Of a stretch of DNA of 64,000 nt, positions 33,817 through 53,076 are shown one piece after another. The notes beneath the pieces are model-generated. The model was given only the letters and a program-made list of their open reading frames with translations, was not told where the DNA came from and did no database searches. The first letter of the stretch is position 1; the number at the start of each line of letters is the position of its first letter. The stretch comes from Chloracidobacterium validum (GTDB lineage Bacteria; Acidobacteriota; Blastocatellia; Chloracidobacteriales; Chloracidobacteriaceae), in assembly GCF_018304825.1 (NCBI RefSeq), contig NZ_CP072648.1:975501-1039500 (forward strand), read 5' to 3'. Position numbers and translations under genes: made by a program.

Positions 33817-35118
33817 TCAAGGTGAGGCAGGCTGGCGGCCGGTCCACAGTCGGCGGGTCAGGGCTATCAGCTTGGCCCGCGCCACCCGGCCGTAATACAC
33901 GAGCGGCGGCGGTTCGCGCCAATGATCTTCTTCCAGATTTGGATGTGGCGGCGGCAATCCAAGGCGGCGCGACCGGCGGCGCAGCAGCGGTTGCCCCTGA
34001 TAGGTTGCTTCCCGGTTGCGGCGGTCAAGTAAGTCCAGCCACTGCCGATGGCAGGTTTCCAGGTCGTAGCCGGAAGTAGTGATCTGTCGCCGGGCCCCCT
34101 GTGCCAGCCGCGCCCAAGTCTCCGGCTGGCCGGCCAGGCGGGCAACTGCCGCCACGAAGCCGTCGCCACGGTCGGGGACGATGAGGCCGGTTTCTCCGTC
34201 CACGACGAGTTCGCCGATGCCGCTGCGCATGGGCGTGCAGATGGGCACGAGTCCGGCCGCCATGGCTTCCATCAGCGCAATCGGCAGTCCTTCATAATCC
34301 GAGAGCAGGACGAAAACGTGGTGTTCGGCCATGAGCGCCTGGATGCGGGCGTTATCCACCAGCCCTACGTAGCGCACGCGACCGTGGCTTTCCTGGGCAA
34401 TGATGCGCTCAACGGCAGCGCGACCCCGTCCGTCGCCGGCGATGGTGGCCGTAACGTTGGGAAGCTGCGCCGCCCGACACAGGGCGCGGGTGACATCCGA
34501 AATCCGTTTTTGTTCCTCTTCGAGCCGCCCGGCATAGAGCAGCCGGAGCGGACCCTGTGTCCACTGCGCGGTCGTGGCCGGGAGGGGGACACCGTAGGGG
34601 ATGCCCCAAACGGACGTTTCGGGCGCGGCCTGGGCTTGCGTGGCTACCGTGAGGTAGCGCGAAACCGTCACGATGTCGGTGGGGCGAAAGCGCGCCGGGC
34701 CGGCAACAAACCTGTCCACCAGCGCGCGATGGTAATCGTCATCAGAATGGAGCACGCCCACCGTGGGGAGACCGGCCGGGCGCGTCCAGGCGGTGGCATA
34801 GAGTCCGGCAATGACGAAGTTCGGGATGAAAACGCTTGGTTGGAGGGCTTCGAGCTGGGCCAACAGCCAGAGAAGCTTCTTCTCGATGGTTTCCCAGTGG
34901 GGAAAGGTCACGAAGCCGATGCCTTGGGCAGCAAGCGCCGCAAGCAGGGGATAATCGTCTGGAATCCGATGCGCATGGGGATTGAGGATGAACGCAAGCA
35001 CCCGGACCTCGAAGCCACGCACCGTGACAAACGCGCTCCAGCGCCGTAGCCAGCTATTGGGGCCGCCGGTGAAGCCCGGGGCATCGAAGGTGCAGATTGC
35101 AACTCTTGGTTTCTTCAT
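33817..35118 (-). CDS. Glycosyltransferase family 4
   Basis: A 433-residue GT-B transferase. It begins with KKPRVAICTFDAPGFTGGPN and has RLLYAGRLEEEQKRISDV and VLLSDYEGLPIALMEAMAAGLVPI (E-x7-E) in the donor lobe. A Pro/Arg-rich C-terminal tail of about 60 residues follows. It is the last GC-rich gene before the AT-rich island: composition changes within a few tens of bases of its start codon at 35118. Its upstream promoter, if any, would therefore lie inside the island; several AT-rich -10-like hexamers there cannot be told from chance. Confidence 0.86.
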   Translation of the reverse strand: MKKPRVAICTFDAPGFTGGPNSWLRRWSAFVTVRGFEVRVLAFILNPHAHRIPDDYPLLAALAAQGIGFVTFPHWETIEKKLLWLLAQLEALQPSVFIPNFVIAGLYATAWTRPAGLPTVGVLHSDDDYHRALVDRFVAGPARFRPTDIVTVSRYLTVATQAQAAPETSVWGIPYGVPLPATTAQWTQGPLRLLYAGRLEEEQKRISDVTRALCRAAQLPNVTATIAGDGRGRAAVERIIAQESHGRVRYVGLVDNARIQALMAEHHVFVLLSDYEGLPIALMEAMAAGLVPICTPMRSGIGELVVDGETGLIVPDRGDGFVAAVARLAGQPETWARLAQGARRQITTSGYDLETCHRQWLDLLDRRNREATYQGQPLLRRRSRRLGLPPPHPNLEEDHWREPPPLVYYGRVARAKLIALTRRLWTGRQPASP

Positions 35119-35177
35119 GGAAAACTTGATGAGTACGTATGTATCAGATTTTTTACGTTTAGTATATTTTGAAAATT

Positions 35178-36908
35178 ATGATAGCAGTCATTTTATCATG
35201 GATTACGGTGTTAGCGATTGCTTACGTTTTTGGAAGCATTTTTGTAACAGAAAAATTATTTGAACGGATGGGAGACCATTTTTTAGTTTCTATTTGGGTA
35301 GGGTTAACAGTTATTTCTAATTTTTGGATCTTGTTGGCATTTTTTATTCCACTAAAATTTTTCTCGACAATGTTCTTTACCTTTGTAGTAGTAGTGTTGC
35401 TATCTATTCGTTTTAAGATAAAATATAATTTTAGATTTTTTAAGGATTTATTGAGGTATAAGTATTTTATAATTTTGAGTTTTTTTATCCTGAACATTGT
35501 TGCATTTTTAGCTTCCCAGGAAGTGAAAAATATAGACACAGGTGGTTATCATTATCCAATAGTTCGCTGGTTAGTAGAGTATGGGGTCACATATGGTTTA
35601 GCATTGCTTCAGTTGCAGTATGGTTACATCTCCACTTGGTATGCATTGATAGCCCCATTTGAAGCTGGACCTTGGCAAGGGCACATCGGCGGGATTGGCG
35701 CTTTTCCAGTTTTCTTACTCTCACTTCATGGTTTACTTAGCATCTTTCGAATACATAAAGGCGAGGAATGTTTTTCAGATTGGTTTATACTTGTTTCCTG
35801 GTTTCTTGGAACTAGCTTAATTGTTCTCTCACCAGTTGTTGTTGGCATGTCTACACTTTCAACTGATATACCAATTGCTGTAACTGTTATTGTTACAACA
35901 TGGATGCTCATTTATCATTGCAATAAAGAAGATTCAGACAATCTAACCAGTAACCTTAGAATTGTGGTGATCGCTTTACTCGCTTTTGGAGCTTTTGCGA
36001 TAAAATTTTCGTCATTTCCACTAGCTCTATTTGTAACGTTGTATATCCTCTTCAATCTAGGTAAACGGAAATTTAATAGAATAACTCTCTTAGCGTTGAC
36101 TCTTGTTTTTTCTTTAGCTCCAACTATGGCAGCTAGGTTTGTTGCATCAGGTTATCCACTTTGTCCCTCAACACTATTTGGCTTTGACTCAGTGGAATGG
36201 GCTGTTGATCGCCAAGTCATAGAGAACGCAACTGTAGAGATTAGAGACTTTGCCCGTTGGCAATGGCACACTTTATCATCTCCGCGTTATAGTCTTGGAT
36301 GGTTTGACCTGTCTTGGTTACAGTATTGGGTAAAGTTTGAAATCTTGATGGCTGCCTATCTAGTTGCTTCTATTTTTTCAACACTTTTCTTAATTTTCAG
36401 ACGAAAATCCGAGCTAAATTTATTTGCAGCGATCTTTATTGGATTAACAGGGACTTTTTATATCTTTATCTCTGCACCCTTCTTACGTCTAGGCATAGGA
36501 TTTTTGGTCATTTTACCATCTTTACTTTTATCTTATCTTTTGTGGATGAAGAAATTAAAATTAGCTTACACAGCAGTTGGAATTATTGTTTTACTTACAA
36601 GTTTATCTGTTTTTTGCAGACAGCCACCTGGAAAGTTTTCGGTTTTGGTTTTCATTTTTATTCTACTTACGCTCTGGCTTTTTGCGATTTGGAGTGGTAA
36701 GAGATGGTCAATGCTAACAAGGGTTGTCATAATAGGGGTGTTGCTATGCTTGCCGATGCTTTTTACTGGTGTTGCTATGCTTGCCGATGCTTTTTACTGC
36801 TGTGCGCATGCGTCCCAAGTTATACCTCGTCAGGCCAGCAAAGATGCCATCTTGGCCAACCACGGTAATTATAGTCAATGGAATCCAGGTTCACCGTCCG
36901 ATTATTGA
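35178..36908 (+). CDS. Polytopic membrane protein, C-terminus frameshifted by a 31-bp duplication
   Basis: As read, a 576-residue inner-membrane protein rich in Ile, Leu, Phe and Lys, with about twelve hydrophobic segments and little soluble sequence; probably a GT-C-like or LIC_10190-like membrane protein of polysaccharide loci. ATG 35178 is used; a TTG three codons earlier is possible. An exact 31-bp tandem duplication at 36737-36798 changes frame, so the last ~45 residues are out of register. Deleting one copy joins the frame to the one ending at 37032, giving 607 residues whose tail contains LCWGSPLPC and PNLALRNP. The gene may therefore be inactive or phase-variable. Confidence 0.75.
   Translation: MIAVILSWITVLAIAYVFGSIFVTEKLFERMGDHFLVSIWVGLTVISNFWILLAFFIPLKFFSTMFFTFVVVVLLSIRFKIKYNFRFFKDLLRYKYFIILSFFILNIVAFLASQEVKNIDTGGYHYPIVRWLVEYGVTYGLALLQLQYGYISTWYALIAPFEAGPWQGHIGGIGAFPVFLLSLHGLLSIFRIHKGEECFSDWFILVSWFLGTSLIVLSPVVVGMSTLSTDIPIAVTVIVTTWMLIYHCNKEDSDNLTSNLRIVVIALLAFGAFAIKFSSFPLALFVTLYILFNLGKRKFNRITLLALTLVFSLAPTMAARFVASGYPLCPSTLFGFDSVEWAVDRQVIENATVEIRDFARWQWHTLSSPRYSLGWFDLSWLQYWVKFEILMAAYLVASIFSTLFLIFRRKSELNLFAAIFIGLTGTFYIFISAPFLRLGIGFLVILPSLLLSYLLWMKKLKLAYTAVGIIVLLTSLSVFCRQPPGKFSVLVFIFILLTLWLFAIWSGKRWSMLTRVVIIGVLLCLPMLFTGVAMLADAFYCCAHASQVIPRQASKDAILANHGNYSQWNPGSPSDY
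36737..36798 (+). repeat. Exact 31-bp tandem duplication
   Basis: Two identical 31-bp copies, 36737-36767 and 36768-36798, lie back to back near the 3' end of the membrane-protein gene. Each begins GGTGTTGCTATG and ends TTTTTACT. Because 31 is not a multiple of three, the second copy throws translation out of frame. Both copies read the same peptide (VLLCLPMLFT) in the frame each would use if the other were absent. Confidence 0.97.
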
Positions 36909-37032
36909 ACCCGGAATTTATCCTTTATGTTGGGGAAGTCCACTTCCTTGTGCCGTATCTCCTGACCCAAATCTTGCACTGCGCAACCCAAAACGGGGTT
37001 TAGCAAGTGGTTTTAAACGCTTATCTAAGTAA
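36769..37032 (+). pseudogene. Displaced C-terminal segment of the membrane-protein gene
   Basis: The +1-shifted frame from the second repeat copy to a stop at 37032 encodes about 87 residues. They contain VRPAKMPSWP, IQVHRPIIEPGIYP, LCWGSPLPC and DPNLALRNPKRGLASGFK. This looks like a real C-terminal domain: it keeps the island's composition, has no internal stop and reads like the conserved CW-x-x-PLPC ... NPNL ending I recall from large bacterial membrane proteins of polysaccharide loci. It is out of frame with the upstream part only because of the 31-bp duplication. Confidence 0.7.
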
Positions 37033-37034
37033 GA

Positions 37035-37979
37035 TTATTGCTTAAATCGAAATACAACTAGTAGGTTTCTCGGTATTGCTAAACTTGTCATAAACCATGC
37101 CAAGGCTTTTGTTAACCATTGCTTGGAATTCTGTCTTTGTTGACTTTGGTAAAAGTTCCATAGCAACCAATCACGCTTACGAAAAAAAATGGAATTATTA
37201 ACTAACGAAAATGTAAGATACCGATTGTATTCCCCGATTTCCATAGGTATGGTATAGGTATTCCTAAGTGTCATTGGAAAGACGTTAGCCAATGCTTTTA
37301 ATGATTGGCGATTCCAAAGCCCCATGTGGTGAGGTGGGGCATTGAGTGCAAAGTATAAGTCAAATTTGTAGGCATAAGGATCACTATTTGGAACAGCAAT
37401 AACTAGGCATCCGCCAGGTTTAAGAAGAGTCAGCGTTGAACTGAGAAAATTGTGAACATTTGTAATGTGTTCAAGGACATGAAAAGCACAAACGACATCA
37501 TAGGAATGTGCGTGCGCGTTCACGTGAGCTTCAACTGTTTCCAGTCGAACATCCAGCCCATCGGCGCGACACTGGGCGACGGCCGCGCGGTTGAGGTCGA
37601 GTCCGACCGCCGCCACCTGGCGGGCTGCCAGGCGTTTCAGAAAGAAGCCGCGGCCGCAGCCGATTTCAAGCACCCGGTCGGATTGTCGGATATGGCGTTC
37701 GGCCAGGGCATGTTCCGGGCGGTCGGTGTAGTACCACGGAAATTGGGCAAGCTGCGCGTAGAGGTCTTCGCGTCCGGCCAGCGTGAACGGGTAGTAAAAG
37801 CGGTAGCCCGTCACCGAACAGGCGTAGATGTCAACCTGGGGCAGTCCGTGGAAGTAATCGGCGACGTCCACGCCGTAATCGCGCTGATAGCTTTCAATCA
37901 ACCGGGACGTGTCGAGCGCCTCCACGCAGCGTGCCGGCGCGCCGGGAACGACTGGGCTGGTCAGTTGGCGGCTTCCCAT
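37035..37979 (-). CDS. Class I SAM-dependent methyltransferase, compositionally chimeric
   Basis: A 314-residue methyltransferase. SAM motif I is VLEIGCGRGFFLKRLAA, the beta-2 acidic residue is in AAVGLDLN, and motif IV is in YDVVCAFHVLEHITNVHNF. A Methyltransf_23-like C-terminal half follows. The 5' half (down to about 37520) is GC-rich like wzt, while the 3' half is AT-rich like the island, so the gene joins two sources at about codon 150 without losing its frame. ATG 37979 overlaps the wzt stop by 19 nt; the longer open frame to 38201 only reads wzt. It ends 2 nt beyond the displaced membrane-protein tail on the other strand. Confidence 0.83.
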   Translation of the reverse strand: MGSRQLTSPVVPGAPARCVEALDTSRLIESYQRDYGVDVADYFHGLPQVDIYACSVTGYRFYYPFTLAGREDLYAQLAQFPWYYTDRPEHALAERHIRQSDRVLEIGCGRGFFLKRLAARQVAAVGLDLNRAAVAQCRADGLDVRLETVEAHVNAHAHSYDVVCAFHVLEHITNVHNFLSSTLTLLKPGGCLVIAVPNSDPYAYKFDLYFALNAPPHHMGLWNRQSLKALANVFPMTLRNTYTIPMEIGEYNRYLTFSLVNNSIFFRKRDWLLWNFYQSQQRQNSKQWLTKALAWFMTSLAIPRNLLVVFRFKQ

Positions 37980-39262
37980 ACCACTCCCTCGACCGGCCGG
38001 ACGGCCGACCACACCGTGTCTTCGACATAGGCTGCTTCGCCCGCATGCCGTTCGTATTCCGCGCGCGGTTGCGCGAGCATCGAGACCTCGAAGGCGAGAA
38101 TCCCCGAAAGCTTTTCGATGAGTTGATTGGAGCGCCGATTGGCCAGCCAGGTGGTCACGGTATAGCGCCCCATGTAGAGCCGCGGCCGTGGCAAGTGGCA
38201 CTCAAACTGATGAGCGCCGCGCTCCAGTGGGCCGAAGTCATAGTCGGCCCCAGTCACCGGATTGACGTAATGGCAGTGAAGCACCGGGCGTTCCTGCTCG
38301 TCCAGGACCTGAAAGGTGAAGGCGAAGTGCCGGCTGGGTTCGTCACAGTGCAGGACGAAACGGAAGGTAAGCGGTTGTCCCCAGTCGTGCTGGCCGCGCG
38401 GCCCGGAGGTCAGGACGCTGGCCCGCGCGACATGGCTGTGACGGGGCGGTGGGTTGGCGACGTAGTTCGACGCCGTATCGGTTGTCAGCCGTTGGCGCCG
38501 TTCGTATTCCTGAATCGCGCCGCCGGTAGGACCGGCATAGACGACTTCGCCGCCTGAAAGGACGAGGCAGGTCGTCGTGAGCCGCCGGACGGCCTGCATG
38601 CTGTGGCTGACAAACAGGACGGTTCGCCCATGCTGGGCGATGTTCTCCATCTTGCCCAGACACTTTTTCTGAAAGCCGGAGTCGCCCACGGCCAGGACCT
38701 CATCCACGATGAGGATTTCAGGTTCGAGGTGGGCCGCCACGGCAAAGGCGAGCCGCATGTACATCCCGCTCGAATAAAAGCGCACCGGCGTATCGAGGAA
38801 GCGCTCCACTTCGGCAAAGGCGACGATTTCATCAAACTTGCGCGCAATCTCGGTCCGGCGCATGCCGAGGATCGCGCCGTTGAGAAAGATGTTTTCGCGT
38901 CCGGTCAGTTCCGGGTGAAAGCCTGTGCCGACTTCCAGCAGCGAGCCGACCCGCCCGTGCAGCTCGACCTGTCCGGTGGTCGGTTCGGTAATGCGGGATA
39001 GCACCTTGAGCAGCGTGCTTTTTCCGGCCCCGTTGCGTCCGATGACGCCGACGGCCTCGCCCCGCTTGATCTCGAACGACACATCTTTCAGCGCCCAGAA
39101 GGTGGTTTCGCCGTCGTCCGGGTCGTGGTTCGACCGGCGGCGCAGGGGAGACAGGAGCGTTTCCTGAATGGATTCCCGCAGTGAGCGATAGGGGCCGCGG
39201 TTGCCGCCGCCAATCCGGTATCGTTTGCCAAGTCCGCAAGCGCGAATCGCAATGTCATTCAT
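37961..39262 (-). CDS. wzt: Polysaccharide ABC transporter ATP-binding protein (Wzt)
   Basis: A 433-residue ATPase of an ABC polysaccharide exporter at the inner membrane. The nucleotide-binding domain (1-245) has Walker A GRNGAGKST, the Wzt-type signature YSSGMYMRLAFAVAAH, Walker B ILIVDEVLAVGD and the switch His in LFVSHSM. Residues ~275-430 form a beta-sandwich carbohydrate-binding Wzt_C-like domain (LTFRFVLHCDEPSRHFAF ... GRYTVTTWLAN). In this family that domain recognises the finished, end-modified chain, which fits the methyltransferases beside it. It is 24 nt downstream of wzm. Confidence 0.93.
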   Translation of the reverse strand: MNDIAIRACGLGKRYRIGGGNRGPYRSLRESIQETLLSPLRRRSNHDPDDGETTFWALKDVSFEIKRGEAVGVIGRNGAGKSTLLKVLSRITEPTTGQVELHGRVGSLLEVGTGFHPELTGRENIFLNGAILGMRRTEIARKFDEIVAFAEVERFLDTPVRFYSSGMYMRLAFAVAAHLEPEILIVDEVLAVGDSGFQKKCLGKMENIAQHGRTVLFVSHSMQAVRRLTTTCLVLSGGEVVYAGPTGGAIQEYERRQRLTTDTASNYVANPPPRHSHVARASVLTSGPRGQHDWGQPLTFRFVLHCDEPSRHFAFTFQVLDEQERPVLHCHYVNPVTGADYDFGPLERGAHQFECHLPRPRLYMGRYTVTTWLANRRSNQLIEKLSGILAFEVSMLAQPRAEYERHAGEAAYVEDTVWSAVRPVEGVVWEAAN

Positions 39263-39286: not shown

Positions 39287-40171
39287 TCATACCCGGTCGG
39301 CAAAGGTTTTTTCCATGCGGCGGAAATAGAACGCTCCGGTGAGCAGCAGGCCAAGCGCCGCCGCGCCGGACACCAGCAAGGGGAGTCCGGGAGGGGCGCC
39401 TGTGCCGAGCAGCGCCCACCGGAAGCCGTCCACCACCCCGCTCATTGGGTTGAGGTGGTAAAGCAGCCGCCACCGGTCTGGCACGAGGCTACTGGGATAC
39501 ACCACCGGCGTTGAAAACATCCAGATTTGGGTCAGGAACGGTATCACGTGGCGCACGTCGCGGTATTCGACATTGAGCGCCGACGCCCACAGCCCAACGC
39601 CCAGCGCCGTCACGGTTGCCAGTCCGACCAGACCGGGCAGCCAGATGACCTGCCAACCCGGCATGATGCCGTAGTAAAGCAGCATCGGCACGAGAATCAG
39701 GCAGGCAATGGCCAAATCCACCAGGCCGCCGAGCACGCTGGCCAGCGGAATGACCAGTCGGGGGAAGTACACCTTGGCAATGAGGTGGGCGCTGTTGACC
39801 AGGCTGTTGGACGATTGACCCAGCGCGTTGGCGAAGAACGTCCAGGGAATGAGCGCCGCCAGCGCAAACAGCGGATAGGGAACGCCTTCGGACGGTATCC
39901 CGGCCAGCCGCCCAAAAAAGACGCTGAACACCACCATGGTGAAAAGCGGCTGGAGAATCGCCCAGGCCGCCCCCAGAACGGTTTGCTTGTAGCGGACTTT
40001 GACATCGCGCCAGATGAGAAAGTAGAGCAGTTCGCGGTAGGCCCACAGTTCGCCGAGCTTGATGGCCGTCCACCCGCGCGATGGCGCAATGCGGATGGTC
40101 GGGTCGGCAGGCGCGTCGGAAGCGTCCAGACGCTGGTGAACCGGCTTGTCAAGCGGAGCGGTTGAATCCAT
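39287..40171 (-). CDS. wzm: Polysaccharide ABC transporter permease (Wzm)
   Basis: A 294-residue ABC-2-type membrane subunit that, with Wzt, exports undecaprenyl-linked polysaccharide to the periplasm. A ~45-residue cytoplasmic N-terminus is followed by LWAYRELLYFLIWRDVKVRYKQTVLGAAWAI-type ABC-2 sequence, six hydrophobic segments and the conserved periplasmic loop FSTPVVYPSSLVPD near residue 210. It is the first gene of the minus-strand glycan block. A promoter-like sequence sits so close upstream that the transcript may have almost no 5' leader. Confidence 0.93.
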   Translation of the reverse strand: MDSTAPLDKPVHQRLDASDAPADPTIRIAPSRGWTAIKLGELWAYRELLYFLIWRDVKVRYKQTVLGAAWAILQPLFTMVVFSVFFGRLAGIPSEGVPYPLFALAALIPWTFFANALGQSSNSLVNSAHLIAKVYFPRLVIPLASVLGGLVDLAIACLILVPMLLYYGIMPGWQVIWLPGLVGLATVTALGVGLWASALNVEYRDVRHVIPFLTQIWMFSTPVVYPSSLVPDRWRLLYHLNPMSGVVDGFRWALLGTGAPPGLPLLVSGAAALGLLLTGAFYFRRMEKTFADRV

Positions 40172-51975: not shown

Positions 51976-53076
51976 TCAGGTAGATGCGGGACGGACCGCG
52001 ACCCGCACCATTGCCGGACGCAGCAGCCGGTCGCCAAGCTTGTACCCACGCTTGAGTTCTTCCAGTACTGTATTTGGTTTGTACTCGTTCGTCTCATCGG
52101 TGGCAATGGCTTCGTGAACCGTGGGGTCAAAGATTTCACCAATGGCTGGAATTGAAACGACGCCCATGCTCGTCAAGCTGTCCGTCAGTTGGCGGTGGAT
52201 AAGCTCAACGCCGGCGAGGAAATCCACCAAACTGCCACCCTCGTTCCGCCCGGTTGCCAACGCGCGCTCGAAGTTGTCAACGACTTCCAGGATGCTCAAG
52301 ATCACGGCCTGCTTGCCCCGCTCGACCGCTTCAGCCTTTTCACGTTCGACTCGCCTGCGATAGTTGTCAAACTCGGCCATCAGCCGCTGGAGCTGTTCTT
52401 GAAGGGTCGTTTTCTCGGTGGTGGTCTTGGCCAGTTGCTCCTTGACAACCTCGACGTGCCGCCGCGCTGAGTTGGTTTGCTCACGCGCACGCTCCAGGTC
52501 TTCCTGCAGGCTTGCCAGGTCCATCAACAGGCGAATGGTTTCATCATCGGAAAATGCTTGACGCCCGCTGGTGCTGGCATCCGGGGTGACCGGTTCATCC
52601 GCCAGGACTGGTTCATCCGCCAGGACTGGCTCATCCGCCAGGACTGGCTCATCCGCCACGACTTGGGCTGGGGGAGCGGTCACGTCCGGCGTCGCTTTGC
52701 CTGCGCGAGTGTCATCCGCCGGCGGTGGGGCAGACTGTGGTGCGGACTGGGCAGGCGGAACATCCGTCGGCCGTGTTCGGTCAGCTTCCCCGCCGAGCCG
52801 AAACGCTTGTGGACGTGGTGGGACGTTAGTTGCCACCTCTGGTGTCTCATCCGTTGAAGAAGATGAGACCGTGGAACTTGTCGTGACAGGCTGTTTGTCA
52901 TCCGACCTGACAAATGGTGGCACAGCGGAAGCTGTGGCGGGATCCTTGGTTGAGGGCGCGACTTCCGTATGGTCATCTAGAATGTCTGGCGTTGTAGGAA
53001 GCTCCAGTTCCATCGTGCGGTGCACCGACGGCCTGACGCCAAACTTGGGCATGACGTTACCAACAGGCGTATTCAC
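51976..53076 (-). CDS. grpE: GrpE nucleotide exchange factor with long N-terminal extension
   Basis: A 366-residue GrpE, about twice the usual length. The conserved part is the last ~180 residues: a long coiled coil (LQRLMAEFDNYRRRVEREKAE), the four-helix region (ILEVVDNFERAL) and a C-terminal beta-wing ending near KLGDRLLRPAMVRVA. The first ~185 residues are acidic, Pro/Thr-rich and low-complexity, and include ADEPVL repeats encoded by an 18-bp tandem repeat. The GTG start at 53076 is supported by GAGGAGG at 53085-53091 with 8-nt spacing; an ATG at 53052 has no comparable site. It releases ADP from DnaK. Confidence 0.93.
   Translation of the reverse strand: MNTPVGNVMPKFGVRPSVHRTMELELPTTPDILDDHTEVAPSTKDPATASAVPPFVRSDDKQPVTTSSTVSSSSTDETPEVATNVPPRPQAFRLGGEADRTRPTDVPPAQSAPQSAPPPADDTRAGKATPDVTAPPAQVVADEPVLADEPVLADEPVLADEPVTPDASTSGRQAFSDDETIRLLMDLASLQEDLERAREQTNSARRHVEVVKEQLAKTTTEKTTLQEQLQRLMAEFDNYRRRVEREKAEAVERGKQAVILSILEVVDNFERALATGRNEGGSLVDFLAGVELIHRQLTDSLTSMGVVSIPAIGEIFDPTVHEAIATDETNEYKPNTVLEELKRGYKLGDRLLRPAMVRVAVRPAST
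52593..52664 (-). repeat. 18-bp tandem repeat inside grpE (ADEPVL units)
   Basis: Four 18-bp units run back to back at 52593-52610, 52611-52628, 52629-52646 and 52647-52664. The first three differ by one base and the fourth has extra changes. They encode ADEPVL three times and then ADEPV in the disordered GrpE extension. Because 18 is a multiple of three, copy-number change would keep the frame. Confidence 0.93.

Follow-up and report, generated by a model that had tools for sequence, protein, structure and literature searches.

A 31-bp tandem duplication moves the conserved C-terminus of a LIC_10190-family membrane protein out of frame in Chloracidobacterium validum

Results

The DNA analysed here (the window) is a 64,000-bp stretch of the genome of Chloracidobacterium validum BV2-C, a hot-spring phototroph. 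It contains an ABC-transporter-type polysaccharide locus with Wzm-like and Wzt-like genes, two methyltransferases and several glycosyltransferases (Table 1). The original prediction had likened the C-terminus of the membrane protein studied here to those of large membrane proteins in polysaccharide loci and had described the composition of its displaced reading frame as island-like. Both points were borne out: Wzm/Wzt-type neighbours were found, and the GC content of the island is 37.4%, versus 60.0% for the window, the composition changing stepwise near 35080 and 37550. The gene (35169-37032) is on the plus strand, whereas the rest of the polysaccharide operon is on the minus strand; the island therefore breaks the run of minus-strand genes. 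The methyltransferase gene at 37035-37970 is a mosaic: its GC content is 37.8% over the 3' half (37035-37500) and 63.8% over the 5' half, which suggests a recombination boundary inside this gene, at the island edge. No terminator-like site was found between the two convergent genes.

Table 1. Features of the duplicated gene and its surroundings (window positions)
Feature	Position	Strand	Basis
Glycosyltransferase, family-4 type, upstream neighbour	33817..35118	-	
AT-rich island, ~37% GC, covering the membrane protein gene plus the 3' half of the adjacent methyltransferase gene	35080..37550	.	
LIC_10190-family membrane protein gene as assembled, cut short, with a non-homologous tail after the duplication	35178..36908	+	NF047510
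31-bp tandem duplication, copy 1, GGTGTTGCTATGCTTGCCGATGCTTTTTACT	36737..36767	+	Read from sequence
31-bp tandem duplication, copy 2, identical to copy 1	36768..36798	+	Read from sequence
Displaced +1 frame with conserved C-terminal tail, CWGSPLPC...LALRNPKRGLASGF	36769..37032	+	tblastn, invariant columns, homologue-only profile
Out-of-frame tail now translated, last 36 residues of the shortened protein, no homologue match	36799..36908	+	
SAM-dependent methyltransferase gene, convergent	37035..37970	-	
ABC transporter ATPase, Wzt-like polysaccharide exporter	37961..39262	-	
ABC-2 permease, Wzm-like polysaccharide exporter	39287..40171	-	

As originally predicted, two exact 31-bp copies lie back to back in the 3' part of the gene, and translation through both copies ends at 36908 with a tail that resembles no domain and matches no homologue. 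Since 31 is not a multiple of three, the frame shifts after the second copy and runs into this stop. A search of the window that tolerated three mismatches found no further occurrence of the unit GGTGTTGCTATGCTTGCCGATGCTTTTTACT (chance expectation 0), and no other site in the 3.66-Mb genome matches its first 23 bases. Translation could begin at TTG 35169, and ATG 35178 is the conserved start, the start column being invariant in 16 sequences. Counted from this ATG, a one-copy gene would encode 607 residues, the length given by the original prediction. Read in the displaced +1 frame, the sequence has no stop between 36736 and 37029 and ends with a stop codon at 37030-37032. This stop is 2 bp from the stop codon of the convergent methyltransferase gene, so position 37032 fits the original end of the gene. 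Under a composition model of the gene, a stop-free tail of this length arises by chance in about 2% of cases. The openness of the displaced frame alone is therefore weak evidence, and homology provides the stronger argument.

The upstream frame belongs to the LIC_10190 family, with an NF047510 match at E 1.9e-54 and 185.1 bits (cut-off 100). The match spans residues 5-443 of the protein and positions 1-423 of the 424 in the model, which ends about 100 residues before the conserved tail motif. Neither frame matched a Pfam model, a search of PDB sequences yielded no credible relative, and a literature search for LIC_10190 found no paper naming the family. The nearest relative by sequence shares 33-38% identity. 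The NF047510 search found family members in every Chloracidobacterium genome examined, and a DNA search of those genomes found no nucleotide-level ortholog of the gene. A scan of genome contigs with the single protein found no relative; a contig scan with a 7-row alignment found five loci, two of them cyanobacterial. The AlphaFold2 model of an intact homologue had a mean pLDDT of 62.5, with the tail below 50. Submitted to Foldseek, this low-confidence model gave ArnT, ALG3, OST and Emb as top matches, with probabilities of 0.72-0.99 and E values of 0.05 or worse. The similarity to GT-C glycosyltransferases (ArnT, ALG3, STT3, Emb) lies in a multi-pass fold with weak structural resemblance and in a conserved Asp within a D-T-G-x-Y-H motif (D120), while a sequence match is missing and the Foldseek E value is 0.05 at best. 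As a modelled fold, this is a lead towards a GT-C-type enzyme and not proof of one.

Several comparisons bear on which frame carries the authentic C-terminus. By tblastn, the displaced frame was 40-45% identical to the C-termini of the eight closest homologues (E 3e-13 to 7e-16). A C-terminal alignment of 12 sequences has 12 invariant columns, all of them present in the displaced frame. We also built a C-terminal profile from homologues only, leaving the window sequence out, and searched it against all stop-to-stop pieces of at least 25 residues in the six frames of the window. The displaced frame was the sole match (68 bits, E 6e-20); the next piece had E 0.66. The tail motif C...PLPC...R..(K/R)G...GF, in this form or as a close variant, is in frame in every full-length homologue examined as well as in both cyanobacterial proteins. 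In the present gene this tail sits in the displaced frame, unlike in its full-length relatives. These results bear out the proposal that the displaced frame encodes the conserved C-terminus and, as judged from these alignments, it is the true one. Homologues ending like the 36908 frame, named beforehand as evidence against the proposal, were looked for, and none was found among the full-length homologues examined, cyanobacterial ones included. Position 36908 was therefore rejected as a natural gene end. The annotation needs correction: this is a LIC_10190-family gene with a disrupted frame, and it originally ended at 37032. Across the loci inspected, the motif, written C..xPLPC ... R..(K/R)G...GF, was seen in L003-L013, L018 and L084-L088.

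The two frames overlap from 36736 to 36905, and a +1 shift within this overlap would join them, so that programmed frameshifting or transcript slippage could restore the full protein. However, the gene contains a single run of seven or more A/T, a T7 at 35480, a long way upstream, and none of the homologues depends on a shift. We regard such rescue as scarcely conceivable. Alternatively, the shortened protein with its new tail might be functional, making the duplication neutral or a change of C-terminus, and the entire NF047510 profile region is indeed kept upstream of the lesion. Against this, residues that do not vary among Acidobacteriota homologues of this family lie in the lost tail, and the same motif is kept in the two cyanobacterial proteins. 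A functional truncation is accordingly highly unlikely. With the conserved tail replaced, the protein would probably be inactive.

We also considered whether the second copy is an error of a long-read-only consensus, in which case the gene would be intact in the organism. Typical errors of long-read assemblies are 1-bp indels at homopolymers, not exact 31-bp duplications. The BV2-C genome comes from PacBio Sequel reads that were assembled with Canu 1.8 and Circlator, and the assembly section mentions no short-read polishing of this strain (PMC8245765). Repeat statistics were collected from 400-kb samples of two genomes. In the sample from the same genome, the longer exact tandem repeats located in genes have periods divisible by three; among exact tandem repeats with other periods of 13 or more, none clearly interrupts a long ORF. 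Genome completeness is 99.95%. The repeat control in particular makes an assembly artefact unlikely. Other repeats were noted along the way. At window positions 52595-52663, an 18-bp unit is present in 3.8 repeats with 96% match, and its period keeps the reading frame. A region of chromosome 2 without long ORFs (L048:629-1064, G000:C2:100629-101064) contains repeats of 10, 21, 22 and 43 bp, most of them based on GTCAATAG/TTTATGTCAAA.

The original prediction further proposed that replication slippage could toggle the gene on and off. This part was not upheld. In the inferred one-copy sequence, the start of the unit and the right flank share 1 bp of identity, and the other end shares none. With so little microhomology there is no built-in tendency to duplicate, and the OFF event should not be specially frequent. 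DNA folding found no hairpin in the repeat that could promote slippage, the repeat folding less well than its shuffles. No full-length homologue examined has a tandem repeat within the gene, and the lesions that break related genes are of other kinds. Collapse to one copy is nonetheless plausible. A review defines phase variation by three features: a change at a single locus, reversibility that has been observed, and a rate detectable without selection (PMC11868660). As to the single locus, we found one duplication in one gene of a single assembly, with no second allele seen. The 1-bp microhomology and the presence of two copies only are sequence hints against a switching rate detectable without selection.

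Frame disruption in this family was also seen elsewhere in the genus. In BV2-C itself, a second LIC_10190-family gene, on chromosome 2, is distributed over three frames (L080:6542-7932, G000:C2:686542-687932); its breaks carry no tandem repeat, and its C-terminal motif, QCWDAPLPC, is intact. One C. thermophilum gene lies in two frames (G001:C1:170282-171456), and one of a metagenome-assembled genome, G004, is frame-broken (G004:C10:4793-6067, L017:1489-3437). The best family match in the BV2-C genome (G000, C1:166410) is intact. The lesions in these three other family members differ from the 31-bp duplication, and some of them could be sequencing errors. Repeated, unrelated lesions of this kind suggest that selection on polysaccharide genes is relaxed or fluctuates, and they fit recurrent gene loss.

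Discussion

Our results suggest the following sequence of events. The gene product is a membrane protein with multiple passes, probably an enzyme of the GT-C glycosyltransferase type or one related to it, and the gene belongs to a polysaccharide locus that appears to be horizontally acquired and fast-changing. A 31-bp tandem duplication, presumably spontaneous, would have arisen near the end of the last transmembrane segment. A conserved, soluble C-terminal tail of about 65 residues is thereby swapped for about 36 unrelated residues, and the shortened protein keeps the family model region and lacks the conserved tail after the last membrane segment. The copies are exact, and the displaced frame is both open and conserved, so the duplication is probably recent, in line with the original prediction. 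Reversion by slippage or recombination between the copies may be possible in principle. Overall, we consider it likely that this is a spontaneous, probably recent duplication representing passive, recurrent loss of a polysaccharide gene, and not an evolved ON/OFF switch.

The closest known systems are the pneumococcal capsule genes cap3A, cap8E and tts, for which reversible duplications are described (Waite et al. 2001, 2003, as cited in PMC4022640 and PMC4243769). As far as those citing accounts go, the likeness is that an exact, spontaneous tandem duplication disrupts a polysaccharide gene and could revert by loss of a copy. The differences are that changes in both directions were reported in culture for the pneumococcal genes, whereas one assembled allele is known here, and that neither the bacterium nor the membrane protein family of the present case is related to the pneumococcal ones. 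For an insertion of up to 9 bp, one of these accounts puts reversion at about 1e-5 at most (PMC4022640). Phase variation by simple sequence repeats, as in contingency loci, is similar in that copy number changes the frame of a surface-related gene. It differs in using a hypermutable tract of short repeats, while here one long unit is present twice and one allele is known. Frame-disrupting duplication is thus a kind of event already described in capsule genes, and in our analysis the present case is probably a loss allele with incidental reversibility.

An evolved phase-variable switch, with slippage alternating between one copy and two so that the gene is regularly switched ON and OFF, would draw on the exact direct repeat inside a surface-polysaccharide gene, on the pneumococcal precedent as relayed in PMC4022640 and PMC4243769, and on the growth of BV2-C as aggregates (PMC8245765). 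However, the low copy number, the near lack of microhomology at the unit ends, the uniqueness of the repeat among homologues and the different lesions of related genes all speak against it, and we judge such a switch very improbable. In a bolder version, also quite improbable, the duplication would be a standing, reversible OFF allele, variable within BV2-C populations, and would govern a surface polymer tied to aggregation. If true, this would be phase variation by long-unit duplication in an environmental phototroph. Should the duplication prove mixed in culture, it would give simple experimental access to aggregation in a phototrophic acidobacterium that can be cultivated.

On the preferred reading of passive loss, the duplication adds a case to the recurrent inactivation of LIC_10190 genes in Chloracidobacterium, which now stands at a minimum of four (at least 4), by different lesions. 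For the family itself, the displaced tail, shared with its members in the genus, points to a conserved C-terminal motif that lies outside the current NCBIfam model.
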